Positions 6,150-47,637 are shown, counted from the first letter of the stretch. The stretch: 64,000 nucleotides of DNA from Spirochaetota bacterium (GCA_038043445.1 JBBTBY010000047.1:1-64000), one strand, 5' to 3'. Translations and numbers: made by a program. Notes: generated by a model not told the origin, from the sequence alone.

Positions 6150-7146
6150 CGCGCTTTCCCGCCGACGGCCTTCTTGTCAGCCCGCGTGAGCGGAATTATC
6201 CGCCGGGGGTCGAAACGGGCCGGCGTAACGATAGAAAGCCCGCGAAGAAGGTCGGCAATACGCGTCACATCGGTCTGCGTGAGATGACCCAGGTCGGACG
6301 ATATTATCGATTCGTACACAAGGCCGCAGCCCACCGCGCGTCCGTGGTTCATGCGGTAATTCGACGCGCGTTCTATCGCATGGCCGATGGTATGCCCGAA
6401 ATTGAGTATCTGCCTAAGCCCGCCCTCGCGCTCATCCTTCTCTACTACCGATTTTTTTATCTCGATGTTGCGTGCTATGCAGTCTGCGAGGAATGACATG
6501 TCCCGCGCGCGGATCTTGTCGATGTTCTTTTCGAGGAGAGCGAAGAGCGCCTTGTCGCGTATAAGGGCGTGCTTTATCACCTCGGAGAAACCGAAGCGAT
6601 ATTCGTCGTCCGGGAGCGTTGTAAGCAGATCGAGCGATGCGAACACCGTTTGAGGCTGATCGAACGTGCCGATGAGGTTCTTGCCGTAGCGCGTATCCAC
6701 GCCGGTCTTGCCGCCGACGGACGAATCGACCATGCTAACGATGGTGGTGGGCATCTGCACGAAGGGAACGCCGCGCGTGAATATCGATGCGGCGAAGGCC
6801 GTCATATCGCCGACAACGCCGCCGCCCAAGGCGATGAACACGCTGTCGCGTCCATAGCCGCGGGCGAAAAAATGGTCGGTGATGCGTTCGATCGTTGCGA
6901 GCTTTTTCGTACGCTCCCCCGGTTGAAGAACGCAGACGTCCGCTCCCCTGCCGACCGCGGAGAGCGCGGACAGGAGGCGTGCGGAATATCGGTTCACATG
7001 CGAATCGGTAACGACGGCAATGCGCCGCTTCGGGAATTCTTTTGCGATGAAAGCGGCCGCCGCATCGAACAGGTCCTCGCCGACGGTGATATCATACCTC
7101 CGGGGAAGTCCTGCCGGTATCGTTACGGATATGCGCTTGATGCGTT

Positions 7147-9534: not shown

Positions 9535-10550
9535 CGGATGAAGCCTTCGCCGGTCCCCTTCGCCATCTCGCCGATAACGCAGGCGCTCGCCTTCAGTTGC
9601 TTTAAGGCACGGAGCACCGCGTCCGCCTTCGACTTCGATGCAATGACGACCATGCCGATGCCGTTATTGAACGTCTCAACCATATCATCATCCGGTATGC
9701 CGCCCGCTTTCTGTATGAAGGTGAAGATGCCGCGCGGAGCCACATCCGTTTTTCGGAACACGATGTCGGTCTTCGCGGGTATCACACGAGTGGCATTGCC
9801 GATGAGGCCGCCGCCGGTGATATGCGCCGCCGATTTGATGAGGTCCTTTTTCACGAGCGCCTGCAATGTCTTCACATAGATGATGGTCGGCGTAAGGAGC
9901 ATCTCCCCGAGCGTGCGGGGGAGATCGTATTTTTTATTGAGGTTGAGCTTCGCTTTCGCAACGACCTTGCGCACGAGCGAATAGCCGTTGGAGTGAAAGC
10001 CGCTCGATGCAAGACCGATCACCACATCGCCCGGTATGATGTTCTTTCGGGGAAGAAGTTCGCTCTTCTCGGCCACGCCGACAGAGAACCCGGCGAGATC
10101 GTATTCGCCGATGCCGTACATGCCGGGGAGTTCCGCCGTCTCGCCGCCGACGAGCGAACACCCGGCGAGCTTGCAGCCTTTCACCACGCCGCGGATTATC
10201 GACTCATAGGGGATGGACGCGAGTGAACCCACGCCGATGTAATCGAGGAAAAAAAGCGGCTGTGCGCCGGTGGTTGCCACATCGTTCACGCACATGGCGA
10301 CAAGATCGATGCCGATGGTATCGTGAATATCCATGTCCTTCGCAAGGAGGAGCTTGGTGCCCACGCCGTCGGTGCCGGACACCATGATCGGCTGTTTGTA
10401 CTTTTTATCAAATCCAACGAGCGACGCAAAACCGCCGATGGGTGTCAACACGTTCTTTGTGTACGTCGTTTTTACGTTCGCTTTAATCCTGTCGATGAGG
10501 CTGTCGGCGTAATGGATATCAACGCCCGCTTTTTTGTAGGTCAGTCCCAT
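9531..10550 (-). CDS. purM: Phosphoribosylformylglycinamidine cyclo-ligase (AIR synthetase)
   Basis: Fifth step of purine synthesis, closing FGAM to AIR with ATP. The PurM signature regions are clear: SGTDGVGTKLLLA, GIDLVAMCVNDVATTGAQPLFFLDY and GGETAELPGMY. The 339-residue protein begins MGLTYKKAGVDI, the standard PurM start; the ATG at 10550 has AGGGA 5 nt upstream. It heads a five-gene operon whose members all overlap or abut by 1 nt. A promoter with TATAAT lies 26 nt upstream. Confidence 0.97.
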
Positions 10551-40355: not shown

Positions 40356-41678
40356 TCAGGACAGACCGAGCTTCTTCATTTTCTGCCAGAGCGCCACGCG
40401 GCTGATGCCTATTTCCCGCGCGGCGGCGCTCCTGTTGCCCCCGTGCGCGGCGAGTATACGCACAATATCATCTTTGCTCACCAGTGAGCGCTTCGCCTCC
40501 CGGGGTTTCTGTTCCGGCGTGTGTTCGGCGGCGGATATCGATGGCGGGAGATCGAGCGCGTCAATGGATGCCCCTGCGGCGACAACGAACGCATACTCGA
40601 TGGTATTTTCAAGCTCGCGCACATTACCCGGCCACGTATGTGCCATGAGCACGCGCATGGCGCGGGGTGTACACCCTTGTATGTTCTTACCCGAACGGGC
40701 GGCATGTTTCTTTATGAACGCATCGCATAAGAGCGGTATATCGTTCATGCGCGTACGCAGGGGCGGCATGTGTATCGGGAACACCGCAAGGCGATAGAAA
40801 AGGTCCTCACGGAAATTCCTTTGTGTAACGTACGCAGGGAGATCACGATTCGTCGCTGCTATGATGCGCATATCGACGGGAATGCTGTCGGTGCCGCCGA
40901 CACGTTCGATCATCCGTTCCTGAATGACGCGAAGGAGCTTCACCTGCGTTGCCGGTGATATCTCACCGATCTCGTCGAGGAATATCGTGCCGCCGTGCGC
41001 AAGCTCGAATTTCCCTTTTTTATCCCGTATGGCGCCGGTGAATGCACCGTGTACGTGGCCGAAGAGCTCGCTTTCGAGGACGCTCTCGGCGAGCGATGCA
41101 CAGGATACCGCCACGAACGGCGTGGTCCTTCGCGGCGAGCGGTCATGAATCGCCCGGGCAGCGAGCTCTTTGCCGGTACCGCTTTCCCCGGTTATGAGAA
41201 CGTTCGCCATCGATTCTGCGGCAAGCGATATCTGGCGGAACACCGCATGCATTGCAGGCGCTTTTCCATAGATGCCGGAATATGACGACGGTGCATCGGC
41301 AACGGCGGTCTTCACCGACGTGCAGACGTTCACATCGCGTATATCGAGGACCATGATACGGCGGCGGCCGGCAACCGCATCGCTGTGGAGCATGACCGGG
41401 CAGAGATCGCCCTCTCGTATCATGAGATAGAAGCTCTTCGTGCCGGGTTCGTTTTCCTTCATGCAGTCGGCGAGATCGACCTCGCTTTCCGCGGACGGTG
41501 AAACGAAGTACCGCAGAATGCGATATGATCTTCCGACGGCATCGTCGCGGGCTATACCTGTCAGGAGCACCATCGCATCGTTCCAGCTCCGTATCGTCAA
41601 TTGTTCATCAAGTGAATAAAAACCGAGCGTGGGAAAACCATCAAGCGCTCCGAATGATGATGCATCAGATGCGTTCAT
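40356..41678 (-). CDS. Sigma-54-dependent enhancer-binding regulator (PAS-AAA-Fis)
   Basis: A 440-residue activator of sigma-54 RNA polymerase. An N-terminal PAS-like sensor (LGFYSLDEQLTIRSWNDAMV, GRSYRILRYFVSPS) is followed by an AAA+ domain with Walker A GESGTGKE, the sigma-54 contact loop GAFTGA, Walker B IFLDEIGEI and the arginine-finger region. A Fis-type helix-turn-helix ends the protein (NRSAAAREIGISRVALWQKM). It is divergent from the glutaredoxin operon that has a -24/-12 promoter. The ATG at 41678 with GGAG 9 nt upstream is preferred; an ATG at 41693 and a TTG at 41696 are alternatives. Confidence 0.93.
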   Translation of the reverse strand: MNASDASSFGALDGFPTLGFYSLDEQLTIRSWNDAMVLLTGIARDDAVGRSYRILRYFVSPSAESEVDLADCMKENEPGTKSFYLMIREGDLCPVMLHSDAVAGRRRIMVLDIRDVNVCTSVKTAVADAPSSYSGIYGKAPAMHAVFRQISLAAESMANVLITGESGTGKELAARAIHDRSPRRTTPFVAVSCASLAESVLESELFGHVHGAFTGAIRDKKGKFELAHGGTIFLDEIGEISPATQVKLLRVIQERMIERVGGTDSIPVDMRIIAATNRDLPAYVTQRNFREDLFYRLAVFPIHMPPLRTRMNDIPLLCDAFIKKHAARSGKNIQGCTPRAMRVLMAHTWPGNVRELENTIEYAFVVAAGASIDALDLPPSISAAEHTPEQKPREAKRSLVSKDDIVRILAAHGGNRSAAAREIGISRVALWQKMKKLGLS

Positions 41679-41698
41679 AGGGTATATCTCCATCAATG

Positions 41699-41710
41699 CT
41701 TAACGTAAAG
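41699..41710. promoter_or_regulatory. Operator-like repeat, proximal copy
   Basis: CTTAACGTAAAG, one base from the perfect palindrome 32 bp away. It lies just upstream of the regulator's start codon. Candidate binding site of the sigma-54 regulator. Confidence 0.6.
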
Positions 41711-41730
41711 CAAGTGCCGCGTGCATATGC

Positions 41731-41742
41731 CTTAACGTTAAG
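41731..41742. promoter_or_regulatory. Operator-like palindrome, upstream activating site
   Basis: CTTAACGTTAAG is a perfect 12-bp palindrome. It lies about 3 helical turns from the second copy and some 75 bp upstream of the sigma-54 start point, the usual range for enhancer sites. It overlaps the regulator's own -10 box. Confidence 0.65.
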
Positions 41743-41767
41743 ATAATATAATGCAACCGCAAATCAA
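41740..41767 (-). promoter_or_regulatory. Promoter of the sigma-54 regulator
   Basis: Minus strand: TTGATT (41767-41762), 16 bp, TATCTT (41745-41740). The -10 box overlaps the operator palindrome, suggesting autoregulation. Confidence 0.45.
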
Positions 41768-41788
41768 GCGAAATTTCACCGTTTTATA

Positions 41789-41804
41789 TGGCATACCGAT
41801 TGCA
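41789..41804 (+). promoter_or_regulatory. Sigma-54 (-24/-12) promoter
   Basis: TGGCATACCGATTGCA fits the sigma-54 consensus TGGCAYR-N4-TTGCW at every position. A start near 41815 gives a leader of about 28 nt, containing AAGGAGG before the ATG at 41843. Confidence 0.85.
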
Positions 41805-41842
41805 ATACTTAAGTAACAGATCATATGACCAAGGAGGTTATT

Positions 41843-42073
41843 ATGTCGGTCACTGTATATTCAACTCCGAGCTGCGGTTATTGCACCATGGCGAAGAATT
41901 ATCTGCGTTCCAAAGGCATTCCGTACACGGATGTTAACGTAGCCGCGGACCGTGCGAAGGCGGAAGAGATGGTACGCAAGACAAATCAATACGGCGTGCC
42001 GGTGCTTGAAATAAACGGGAGCATCGTCGTCGGTTTCGACAGGCCGCGCATCGATGCGCTCATAGGACGGTAG
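41843..42073 (+). CDS. Glutaredoxin-family protein (CGYC)
   Basis: A 76-residue thiol oxidoreductase of the glutaredoxin/NrdH class. The active site CGYC lies in VYSTPSCGYCTMAKNYL, with the cis-Pro motif GVPVLEI and the C-terminal GFDRP. It reduces disulfides or passes electrons to small partners. The ATG at 41843 follows AAGGAGG by 5 nt. It is the first gene of the sigma-54-controlled operon, 2 nt before the 4Fe-4S gene. Confidence 0.92.
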   Translation: MSVTVYSTPSCGYCTMAKNYLRSKGIPYTDVNVAADRAKAEEMVRKTNQYGVPVLEINGSIVVGFDRPRIDALIGR

Positions 42074-42075
42074 AC

Positions 42076-42273
42076 ATGGTCTCAATAATTGCAGCACGCT
42101 GCCCGCAGAACCATCCCTGTCCGTCGGTACATGTATGCCCGACGGGGGCGCTCACGCAGAAGGGTTATGGTCTGCCGGAGGTTGACGAAGAGAAATGTAC
42201 CGACTGCGGACAATGCATATCGTTCTGCCCGCGCGGGGCTTTCAAACCGGCAGCGGCGGGGGTTCTGCGATGA
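42076..42273 (+). CDS. Small 4Fe-4S binding protein
   Basis: A 65-residue ferredoxin-like protein. One cluster motif is canonical (CTDCGQCISFCP); the other is a looser set of cysteines in ARCPQNHPCPSVHVCPTGAL. This CPQNHxC pattern marks a distinct small family that often travels with DUF6132 proteins. It starts 2 nt after the glutaredoxin stop and its TGA overlaps the next ATG (ATGA), so the three genes are translationally coupled. Probably an electron carrier. Confidence 0.9.
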   Translation: MVSIIAARCPQNHPCPSVHVCPTGALTQKGYGLPEVDEEKCTDCGQCISFCPRGAFKPAAAGVLR

Positions 42274-42452
42274 CCATGCGTATAATAAAAACCGCCGCGT
42301 TCATAGTCATCGGCGGCGTACTTGGATTTGCCTATTACAAACTCGTAGGCTGTCGGACGGGCACCTGTCCGATAACGTCCAATCCCTATATATCGATGAT
42401 CTATGGGGCCGTTCTCGGCGGATTGGCAAGCGGGATCACAGCCCCATCATGA
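42270..42452 (+). CDS. DUF6132 family small membrane protein
   Basis: A 60-residue protein with two hydrophobic helices flanking the conserved loop GCRTGTCPITSNPYIS, the DUF6132 signature with two cysteines. Function is unknown; the family recurs beside thioredoxin, rhodanese and ferredoxin genes, which fits a membrane redox or sulfur role. The start overlaps the 4Fe-4S gene's stop. The last 17 bp overlap the convergent acetyl xylan esterase gene. Confidence 0.85.
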   Translation: MTMRIIKTAAFIVIGGVLGFAYYKLVGCRTGTCPITSNPYISMIYGAVLGGLASGITAPS

Positions 42453-43421: not shown

Positions 43422-43449
43422 ATGGTATCGTACTGGGATTTTTATGCAA
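43422..43449 (-). promoter_or_regulatory. Candidate promoter of the esterase gene
   Basis: Minus strand: TTGCAT (43449-43444), 16 bp, TACCAT (43427-43422). The -10 box is weak. Confidence 0.35.
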
Positions 43450-43485
43450 GTGGTGGGCCTGCATAGTCTCCGGATAAGCATGTTG

Positions 43486-43513
43486 TTGACGAAGCCCCTG
43501 CATCGTGTATACT
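43486..43513 (+). promoter_or_regulatory. Promoter of the ZIP-cNMP transporter
   Basis: TTGACG (43486-43491), 16 bp, TATACT (43508-43513). Confidence 0.65.
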
Positions 43514-43542
43514 GTCCTGAAATTCTGACATTGGCGGTGAAT

Positions 43543-44844
43543 ATGTTTTCGACATTCCCGTTCAATAATCCCGGGTTCCAGTCATTTGCATGGGGCGTCA
43601 TAAGCGCCATTTCACTGCCGCTCGGGACGCTCACCATCCTTGTCTGGAAGCCCGGGCCGAAAGCGGTCGCTTTCCTCATGGCGTTCGGCGGCGGGGCGCT
43701 TCTTTCCGCGCTGACGATAGATCTTGTCGGCGCGGCGATAAAAGCAGGGCATTTCATCCCATTGGCCATCGGCTGTGCCGGCGGCGGTGTGCTTTTTGAG
43801 GTCTTAAACCAGCTGCTCAATAAACAGGGCGGTTTTCTGCGTAAATCATCCACAACGCTGAATTATCTGAAAATAAAAAAGTCACGGCAATTCAAGCGCA
43901 TATTCCGGGAATTGAGCCGCATCCCGATATTCCATGAGCTTCCCCCGGAAGAAATAAAGCTTTTAGCACCCTATATAACCGATTCACGATATCCGAAAGG
44001 TGTTTCAATATTCAAACAGGGGGAGAAAGGCGACAGCCTGTTCATCATCGAAAAGGGGATCGTGGATGTATGGGACGATAAGAGTAAGAAGCGAATATCG
44101 CGTCTTACTGATAACGATATCGTGGGCGAGATAGCGATCATTACCGGCGCGACAAGAACAGCCACGGCACGTACCGTGACCGATACGAACATGTGGGTGA
44201 TACAGAAGACCGATTTTGAGAAGGTGCTGGCGCAGTCCCCGCGCTTATCCCAGGTCATGAAGGATCTTATACAGGGCCGGCTCAAGCGATTGGAAAAGGT
44301 CATGGCCATTGATCCGAAGAAAGCGCGCCGCTGGGCCGCAACGGTGATCAGGAACATCGATGAGCGGGCGATGCTGCCGACGAACCATGAGATACAAAAA
44401 GCTGCCGCGGAGAATAAAGGCGCACCGCTGGCGATATGGCTCGGGATACTGCTTGACGGAATACCGGAGTCGCTTGTCATCGGCGCGAGTCTCATCCATT
44501 CATCGATAAGCTTTTCCCTGATAGCCGGTCTTTTTCTGTCGAATTATCCGGAGGCGCTTTCCAGTTCCATGGGCATGAAGGAGCAGGGCAAATCGTTCCC
44601 GCGTATCCTGCTGATGTGGAGCTCGCTTGTGCTTATCACCGGCATCGGCGCATTTTTCGGGAACATGCTCTTCGCGCATACGCCGCACTTTCTTTTCGCC
44701 TTCATCGAAGGACTTGCTGCGGGGGCGATGCTCACGATGATAGCAGAAACGATGCTCCCGGAGGCGTTCCATAAGGGCGGGTCCATCATCGGCCTGGCGA
44801 CACTGTTCGGCTTCCTCTCCGCGCTGTTCTTCAAGATGATATGA
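43543..44844 (+). CDS. ZIP-family transporter with an inserted cyclic-nucleotide-binding domain
   Basis: A 433-residue membrane protein. Three N-terminal helices (about 12-100) are followed by a complete cNMP-binding domain in the TM3-TM4 loop (about 125-240): IFHELPPEEIKLLAPYI, FKQGEKGDSLFIIEKG, and the phosphate-binding cassette VGEIAIITGATRTATART with Arg. The remaining helices carry ZIP-like motifs (GILLDGIPESLVIGAS; LSNYPEALSSSMGM). The TM4 His of the usual HNIPEG is Asp here. The ATG at 43543 is favoured by the promoter position and a GGCGG. Probably metal transport gated by a cyclic nucleotide. Confidence 0.85.
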   Translation: MFSTFPFNNPGFQSFAWGVISAISLPLGTLTILVWKPGPKAVAFLMAFGGGALLSALTIDLVGAAIKAGHFIPLAIGCAGGGVLFEVLNQLLNKQGGFLRKSSTTLNYLKIKKSRQFKRIFRELSRIPIFHELPPEEIKLLAPYITDSRYPKGVSIFKQGEKGDSLFIIEKGIVDVWDDKSKKRISRLTDNDIVGEIAIITGATRTATARTVTDTNMWVIQKTDFEKVLAQSPRLSQVMKDLIQGRLKRLEKVMAIDPKKARRWAATVIRNIDERAMLPTNHEIQKAAAENKGAPLAIWLGILLDGIPESLVIGASLIHSSISFSLIAGLFLSNYPEALSSSMGMKEQGKSFPRILLMWSSLVLITGIGAFFGNMLFAHTPHFLFAFIEGLAAGAMLTMIAETMLPEAFHKGGSIIGLATLFGFLSALFFKMI

Positions 44845-46281: not shown

Positions 46282-47637
46282 CTAATTCATCAATCCCGCG
46301 ACGGCCGTTCCGATTAGCGTCGCATTCTCAACGGTGAGGATGTCATAATAGATGCCCTTCTTCTCCCGGAGATACGCACCGAGAAATCGCTCGGTCTTCT
46401 GTTTGAGACCCGCAAGGCGATGGAAAGTCGTCCCTTCGGCGGTTATGCCCACCGGCGCGAGCGGATCGGTGCCGGCCCCCGAGCGTATGACAACGGATGC
46501 GAGATTGATAGCAGTGATAGCAGCGGAACGCGAGACGAGCATGTCAAAGAGATGCCAGAGCGTACGCGCGTCGTCACCCATGACGAGGCGGGAGAGCGAA
46601 TACTCTGTGTCATTGGGCATGCTGATAAAGTCATTGATGTCCTTCGTTTCGAGAGCGGTGAGCGATGAAAGAAGCGTGGCCGCGGCGGGAGAGAACAATC
46701 CCTCGCGGCATGCGGCATGCACGGCAAGAAGGGCGAGCGGCCCGAGATAGCGCCCGGACACTATCTTCTCAAGTCGATAATTCCCTTTGTCCTGCGTCGT
46801 CGCATCGAGCGCATCATCGAGATCACCATGCGGGAGCACGTTCATACCGCCCATCTCGATATTGATGCACTGCGAACGCTTTGCATCGAGACCTTTGACC
46901 TTGGTGATATTCCTGTTCGCTTCTACATAGCTCGTATTGGTGCCGGTACCAAGAATGAAGCCGATATAGCTCCCGTACTGACGCGCACCGGAGACCGAAC
47001 GCCCGGCAAGAAGGGTTGCGACCGTATCATTGAGTATGACGATGTTCTTTTTCGACGCCCCGTTCGCGGCGAGCGCGGCCGTAAGCCCCTCGCCGATGAA
47101 ACTCCCCTCTACCGCTTTTGCTTTTACTTCCTTCGTCCAATGCATGAGCTTGCCGTCCTTCGACGGGAACATCTCGACGGGGTAGGAGAAGCAGAAACTG
47201 ATGGAATCGGAAACATCGGCCACCGCGCGGACATGGGCGGACATGGCAGCGTAGAATTCATCCTTGGCAAGCTCACGCTCGATACCCGGCATGCGATGCG
47301 TGGTGAAATTCTCCACCACCGGATTCCTCGATGCATCGAATCGCACCGTTGATACGCGGAAATTCGTACCGCCCGCATCGAGCACTATGACCTTCTTGTC
47401 GACAGGGAGTTCATGCTCGGTATCGACCTCGATATAGGTCGGTATCATCTTAAGCGAGCTTTTCTTCCCGGCAAGACCGTTCTCCATCTCGGAGCAGAAC
47501 CGCTTCGTCCATGTATCGATATCGATATCACGATAGTTCGCGCCGTGCCTCGTGAGGAATCGCGATACACGCGTTTCAGGCGTAACGGATTTCGCTTTCG
47601 TCGTCGCACGTGCTTTCTTTGCCGGTCGTTTCTTCAT
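46282..47637 (-). CDS. Eukaryote-type hexokinase
   Basis: Phosphorylates glucose and related hexoses with ATP. The 451-residue protein has the hexokinase_1/hexokinase_2 two-domain pattern: phosphate-binding VIVLDAGGTNFRVS, sugar-binding SFCFSYPVE, catalytic Asp in ILNDTVATLLAG, then GFILGTGTNTSYVE and the C-terminal phosphate motif GTAVAG. This type is typical of Treponema and other spirochaetes rather than most bacteria. A basic Lys/Ala-rich tail (MKKRPAKKARATTKAK) precedes the domain. It has its own promoter. It is probably the entry point for the sugars freed by nearby hydrolases. Confidence 0.92.
   Translation of the reverse strand: MKKRPAKKARATTKAKSVTPETRVSRFLTRHGANYRDIDIDTWTKRFCSEMENGLAGKKSSLKMIPTYIEVDTEHELPVDKKVIVLDAGGTNFRVSTVRFDASRNPVVENFTTHRMPGIERELAKDEFYAAMSAHVRAVADVSDSISFCFSYPVEMFPSKDGKLMHWTKEVKAKAVEGSFIGEGLTAALAANGASKKNIVILNDTVATLLAGRSVSGARQYGSYIGFILGTGTNTSYVEANRNITKVKGLDAKRSQCINIEMGGMNVLPHGDLDDALDATTQDKGNYRLEKIVSGRYLGPLALLAVHAACREGLFSPAAATLLSSLTALETKDINDFISMPNDTEYSLSRLVMGDDARTLWHLFDMLVSRSAAITAINLASVVIRSGAGTDPLAPVGITAEGTTFHRLAGLKQKTERFLGAYLREKKGIYYDILTVENATLIGTAVAGLMN

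Follow-up and report, generated by a model that had tools for sequence, protein, structure and literature searches.

A probable sigma-54-dependent thiol-redox regulon in a spirochaete genome and its candidate one-component activator

The 64,000-nucleotide stretch of Spirochaetota DNA analysed here (the window) comes from a draft genome of 5.13 Mb in 178 contigs and contains a gene for a sigma-54 activator facing away from a small operon of thiol and iron-sulfur proteins. The arrangement raises the question of which genes this regulator controls and to what signal it responds. A preliminary description had read it as a self-contained redox module with a dedicated sensor. We explain the locus best as a thiol-redox regulon that depends on sigma-54 and is served by a one-component activator of its own; to this explanation, with all of its conditional steps included, we assign a probability of about 0.62.

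The regulator, a PAS-AAA+-Fis sigma-54 activator of 446 aa, is encoded on the minus strand at 40356..41696; its longest reading begins at TTG 41696, and ATG codons at 41693 or 41678 are also possible starts. Pfam recognized a PAS domain (PF00989), the sigma-54 activation domain (PF00158, 232 bits), AAA_lid_14, and HTH_8 (42 bits). A GAFTGA loop is present, the AAA+ domain is joined to a Fis-type HTH as in bacterial enhancer-binding proteins, and the recognition helix reads GISRVALWQKMKK. Together with the gene coordinates, these domains bear out the divergent pairing of a PAS-AAA-Fis activator with a three-gene operon that had been described earlier. Orthologs were found in the spirochaete genomes G003, G054, and G012 and in Fibrobacter. 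The source genome encodes RpoN in a single copy (contig C28) and nine strong sigma-54 activators; among the seven of these nine with recovered N-termini, the regulator is by inspection the sole PAS type, the other six being receiver- or GAF-like in appearance. The PAS domain had no significant match among solved structures, and an AlphaFold model of the regulator built from two input sequences was unusable (pLDDT 41).

The divergent operon lies on the plus strand and encodes the CGYC thiol protein, the CPQNHxC iron-sulfur protein, and the two-cysteine membrane protein named in the preliminary description, each now assigned to a family (TIGR02196, Fer4, and PF19628, respectively). The first gene, grx (41843..42073), encodes a glutaredoxin-like redoxin of the YruB/Cp9 family (CGYC, 76 aa; TIGR02196, PF00462), which scored 96.8 bits against TIGR02196 YruB (cut-off 88.55) and is 60% identical to the redoxin of G054. 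Translation probably starts at ATG 41843 rather than at 41825, because a ribosome-binding site (AAGGAGG, plus strand, 41831..41837) stands ahead of the former. Next is a small [4Fe-4S] protein (Fd; CPQNHPCP, 65 aa; Fer4) at 42076..42273, and last a 60-aa DUF6132 membrane protein at 42270..42452 (PF19628, 30.5 bits, cut-off 23.2), the gene for which overlaps the Fd stop by 4 bp. The DUF6132 family alignment contains two invariant cysteines in the motif GC-x2-G-x-C. Sequence and profile searches of DUF6132 against solved structures returned nothing significant, and the literature searched contained no paper describing the family.

Between the regulator and grx are two operators and a promoter. 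Operator 1, CTTAACGTAAAG (41699-41710), lies 90 bp upstream of the -24 element; operator 2, CTTAACGTTAAG (41731-41742), lies 58 bp upstream of it. The earlier claim of two upstream palindromes 32 bp apart thus holds for their presence and spacing, and operator 2 is a perfect palindrome, whereas operator 1 is one mismatch short of one. The promoter, TGGCATACCGATTGCA (41789-41804, plus strand), matches TGGCAYRN4TTGCW at all positions, as had been stated, and is the sole such match in the 64-kb window (0.02 expected). The pattern TTAACGTWAA gave three matches at two places in the same 64 kb, against 0.08 expected, and every match to either pattern in the window falls in the regulator-grx intergenic region. 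In the 5.1-Mb genome, the exact sequence CTTAACGTWAAG occurs at three places, two of them in this intergenic region and the third on contig C92. Genome-wide, the -24/-12 consensus alone was at background (13 matches against 11 for a reversed control); TTAAC half-sites upstream mark only two of these matches, those of the window operon and of C92. One-mismatch operator matches on C35, C58, C78, C87, C94, and C118 were fewer than in the reversed control and were dismissed as chance; one of them, C58:27633, lies within an AraC-type gene.

The third exact operator (C92:27699; L020:4700-4711) precedes a second -24/-12 promoter, TGGCATAGTATTTGTA (L020:4618-4633, minus strand), with a half-site at the same 32-bp step as the window operators. 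The operon behind it encodes a thioredoxin-like protein (WCPWC; Thioredoxin_2/_7) that is predicted to be secreted, together with a thioredoxin (WCGPC). An exact operator and a -24/-12 promoter before a two-thioredoxin operon on another contig mean that the module is not self-contained, contrary to the preliminary description, and indicate a regulon of thiol-redox genes, a designation in which we have high confidence.

If these sites are functional, they should be kept where the regulator is kept, and the earlier claim had been staked on such conservation. The fullest case is the distant spirochaete G003 (locus L108, also L033), a MAG isolate SulCav_AS07-7_42_24 labelled Brevinema andersonii, Spirochaetota. 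The gene order, regulator//grx-Fd-DUF6132, is identical to that of the window, TGGCACAGTAATTGCA and CTTAATGTTAAA are present, and the distance from operator to -24 element is exactly 90 bp, as in the window. When the joint operator and promoter pattern was searched in 393 genomes of the phylum, only the window genome and G003 reached two matches; the reversed control gave four matches in total. The second match in G003 (C366:9348) belongs to another activator with a cysteine-rich PAS domain, beside an ABC transporter, and was not counted. That activator (L137:30-3115; PAS CCEVFKSNMCENECPL) is divergent from the ABC-transporter operon, which has a matching TTAACGTTAA and -24/-12 layout; this may be a separate operator or cross-talk.

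With two regulators as queries, the only further orthologs above 430 bits in the 393 genomes were those of G054 and G012, both of which are among the 18 of 393 genomes that carry DUF6132; for G003, which was found through DUF6132, the joint presence of the two is circular evidence, and G012 and G054 are the fair tests. The G054 ortholog is divergent from trx-grx-tlpA, with the promoter TGGCACAGATATTGCT, and a DUF6132 gene with a methyltransferase has its own promoter, TGGCACATTAATTGCT, in that genome; the two promoters have in common the 16-mer GTTAACTTATTGTTAA, which occurs nowhere else in the G054 assembly. In G012, where the regulator is located elsewhere, the genes of the operon run grx-DUF6132-disulfide reductase:rhodanese-rhodanese; eight half-sites precede them, and the -24/-12 element is imperfect. 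Half-site layout varies by species, being adjacent and inverted in the window and spaced in G054 and G012. Half-sites were enriched in six spirochaete promoters combined (p about 1.5e-9), and the enrichment was not significant in G003 alone (p 0.13). TTAAC-type sites accompany -24/-12 elements at L140, L005, and L105. All sigma-54 targets linked to the regulator clade include thiol-redox or DUF6132 genes. With a -24/-12 promoter and upstream activator sites in the window, kept in relatives, these sequence comparisons lead us to regard a sigma-54 regulon with TTAAC-type sites as very probable.

The Fibrobacter ortholog (L105) is 54% identical to the regulator over AAA+ and HTH and is divergent from a thioredoxin gene, the product of which is 71% identical to the C92 thioredoxin. 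Eight half-sites fall in the 100 bp upstream of its -24 element, against 0.53 expected, followed by TGGCATAGCGTTTGCG. A regulator paired with a thioredoxin gene behind TTAAC sites gives independent support for the C92 operon as a regulon member. The L105 contig carries the genes for the regulator, thioredoxin, ArsR-DUF6132-Fd, a CcdA-like protein, rhodanese, and TauE.

Specificity could be judged from a sister clade, from which the regulator clade separates at 99/99 in our tree. Sister activators in Fibrobacterota (L186:1-2853 and L205:1-2871) are divergent from thioredoxin and disulfide reductase genes with -24/-12 promoters. Their recognition helix reads DRTTVWR, as against S(R/K/T)(V/I)xLW in the regulator clade, and TTAAC is absent from their upstream regions, where TGTTGCA-type sites (GTTGCA repeats) recur instead. 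That helix and site differ in concert supports the view that each regulator binds the sites next to it. A full-length relative in Fibrobacteres (L187) has no adjacent thiol operon or -24/-12 element. As separate observations, the PAS domains of L186 and L205 are cysteine-rich (CCSLM...C...C), and a Treponema MAG (L208:1420-3488) encodes a sigma-54 activator with a similar cysteine-rich PAS domain beside a peroxiredoxin-like gene on the opposite strand.

What, then, would the regulator sense? The N-terminal 140 residues are 31% identical in the one ortholog pair measured, and an alignment of five thiol-linked orthologs retains five invariant N-terminal residues. One of these is Cys78 of the PAS domain (codon 41463..41465, minus strand), which is missing from a G054 paralog that has no adjacent thiol operon. 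Because of this distribution, our leading idea is that C78 may be a thiol switch or a site of persulfidation. A second cysteine, Cys125 (codon 41322..41324, minus strand), lies in the PAS/AAA+ linker, seven residues past the PAS 'DI' motif; it is found in the spirochaete orthologs and is absent from that of Fibrobacter. We lean, by a little, towards thiol oxidation or reactive sulfur sensed through C78 as the signal. Between these, the rhodanese and reductase:rhodanese partners favour sulfane sulfur. Gene sets for handling persulfide comprise a disulfide reductase with a rhodanese domain, rhodanese, and thioredoxin; the G012 operon resembles them, and the sister sigma-54 regulators are likewise linked to thioredoxin and disulfide reductase, whereas the window operon has neither the reductase nor rhodanese.

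The neighbourhoods of the Fe-S family, for which at least 525 matching stretches were confirmed in genome contigs, are enriched in four kinds of gene. Comparing near (within 2.5 kb) with far loci, we counted thioredoxins at 10 and 2, CoA-disulfide-reductase-like genes at 7 and 1, DUF6132 at 7 and 0, and ArsR-type regulators at 6 and 1, each near count being inflated by about one locus since the queries were drawn from near neighbours. In a Bacillota MAG, a single 152-aa ORF (L052:2154-2612) joins DUF6132 to a CPQNHPCP Fe-S protein; a CoA-disulfide-reductase-like gene and a Crp/Fnr-like regulator are nearby.

The mechanism we propose would run as follows. Thiol oxidation or sulfane sulfur (persulfide or polysulfide) would modify Cys78 of the PAS domain, and the activator, at its TTAAC sites, would remodel sigma-54 polymerase at the -24/-12 promoter. 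Reducing persulfides and disulfides would fall to the redoxin and the thioredoxins, while the Fe-S protein and the two-cysteine membrane protein DUF6132 might relay electrons or sulfur at the membrane. Both the use of sigma-54 in vivo and the biochemical signal are steps that we infer. The dedicated-sensor response to thiol, sulfur, or redox stress suggested in the preliminary description gains support in this form from the conserved sites and the thiol-redox targets, its signal being the conditional part.

The likeliest reading is that sigma-54 here drives a response to oxidised thiols or reactive sulfur that works in the manner of FisR, without the regulator being a demonstrated FisR. FisR is a sigma-54 activator of sulfide-oxidation genes that responds to sulfane sulfur in Cupriavidus pinatubonensis and Acinetobacter baumannii (PMC7315123; PMC9918477). 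Like FisR, the regulator unites a regulatory domain, AAA+, and a DNA-binding domain in one component, and its gene diverges from a thiol/sulfur operon that has a sigma-54 promoter; a TauE gene also adjoins the Fibrobacter ortholog. The targets differ: those of FisR are SQR and PDO, those of the regulator redoxins, an Fe-S protein, and DUF6132, and no sqr or persulfide dioxygenase gene was found in the window operon or in the C92 operon. We do not file the regulator as FisR, because the SQR/PDO targets are absent and because the comparison rests on FisR descriptions rather than on cysteines; A. baumannii FisR reportedly is without the conserved regulatory-domain cysteines of Cupriavidus FisR (PMC7315123).

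Other explanations deserve weight. Were the -24/-12 element and the palindromes chance matches, the operon would be run from another promoter, and the background frequency of the -24/-12 pattern alone (the 13 against 11 matches above) is what chance would give. Moreover, of 80 other Fd-family loci, L108 is the only one where such a promoter stands close to the Fd operon. We nevertheless consider chance very improbable, since promoter and operator recur at the orthologous position in G003, -24/-12 elements with TTAAC-type sites stand at regulon genes of G054 and Fibrobacter, and the rare operators link separate operons inside one genome. Absence of the promoter from loci lacking the regulator is what specific regulation predicts, and the finding at L108 only led us to reject sigma-54 promoters as a trait of the Fd family: sigma-54 control is tied to the regulator lineage, not to the gene family.

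Granting the same wiring, the signal could instead be peroxide or general oxidative stress, with the YruB (Cp9-type) redoxin feeding a peroxiredoxin and the PAS domain sensing peroxide or redox potential. The window redoxin exceeds the YruB cut-off and is thereby of the same family as Cp9 of Clostridium pasteurianum, where redoxins of this type reportedly reduce peroxiredoxins and the gene sits between those for thioredoxin reductase and peroxiredoxin (PMC3720550); the window gene has no such position. PAS domains, the commonest sensor domains in the reconstructed sigma-54 regulons of Clostridiales, can sense redox potential (PMC6615313). That reconstruction followed the same comparative logic as ours (activator, upstream sites, and -24/-12 elements), and its text mentions neither thioredoxin, glutaredoxin, nor persulfide (PMC6615313). 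We judge peroxide unlikely, since the regulator-linked operons read showed no peroxiredoxin or peroxidase; the partners there are thioredoxins, rhodaneses, disulfide reductases, and DUF6132. Metalloid stress of the arsenite type, in which the PAS cysteines would be ligands of As(III) and the redoxins would help to reduce arsenate or repair thiols, is suggested by an ArsC-like gene (L009) and an ArsM-resembling methyltransferase (L005) adjoining DUF6132, and by ArsR-type regulators near Fd or DUF6132 in several loci. It appears improbable: neither the window operon nor the C92 operon contains ars regulator, reductase, or efflux genes, the L005 methyltransferase matches general methyltransferase families only (Pfam), and persulfide sensors such as BigR are also ArsR-type (PMC7315123).

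A bolder form of the thiol/sulfur reading, which we offer tentatively and with more doubt than belief, is that the clade with PAS Cys78 and the recognition helix GIS(R/K/T)xxLWxK(M/L)KK constitutes a family of its own, made up of one-component sensors of reactive sulfur or thiol oxidation, and that DUF6132 and the CPQNHxCP Fe-S protein form a new minimal membrane relay for electrons or sulfur. If true, a widespread family for which the literature searched held no paper would acquire a function. The locus offers testable biology for two small families without assigned function, DUF6132 and the CPQNHxCP Fe-S protein, and suggests that sigma-54 serves thiol/sulfur defence in bacteria from two phyla or more. 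Because a rare operator, a promoter, and an invariant candidate sensor cysteine are linked here, the signal can be tested directly.

Several other features of the window and its genome were observed. The window encodes, at 43444-44844, a ZIP-like transporter (weak match) that carries a cyclic-nucleotide-binding domain in mid-protein and, at 46282-47637, a hexokinase with both Pfam hexokinase domains; the two-domain type is best known from eukaryotes. On C58, small cysteine-rich (CxxC) ORFs lie directly 3' of -24/-12 matches at 10381 and 33346 (L165 and L166), the latter near a sigma-54 activator at C58:32292. On C122, a GroEL-like gene follows 84 bp after a -24/-12 match (6393-6408; L171) that has no TTAAC sites.
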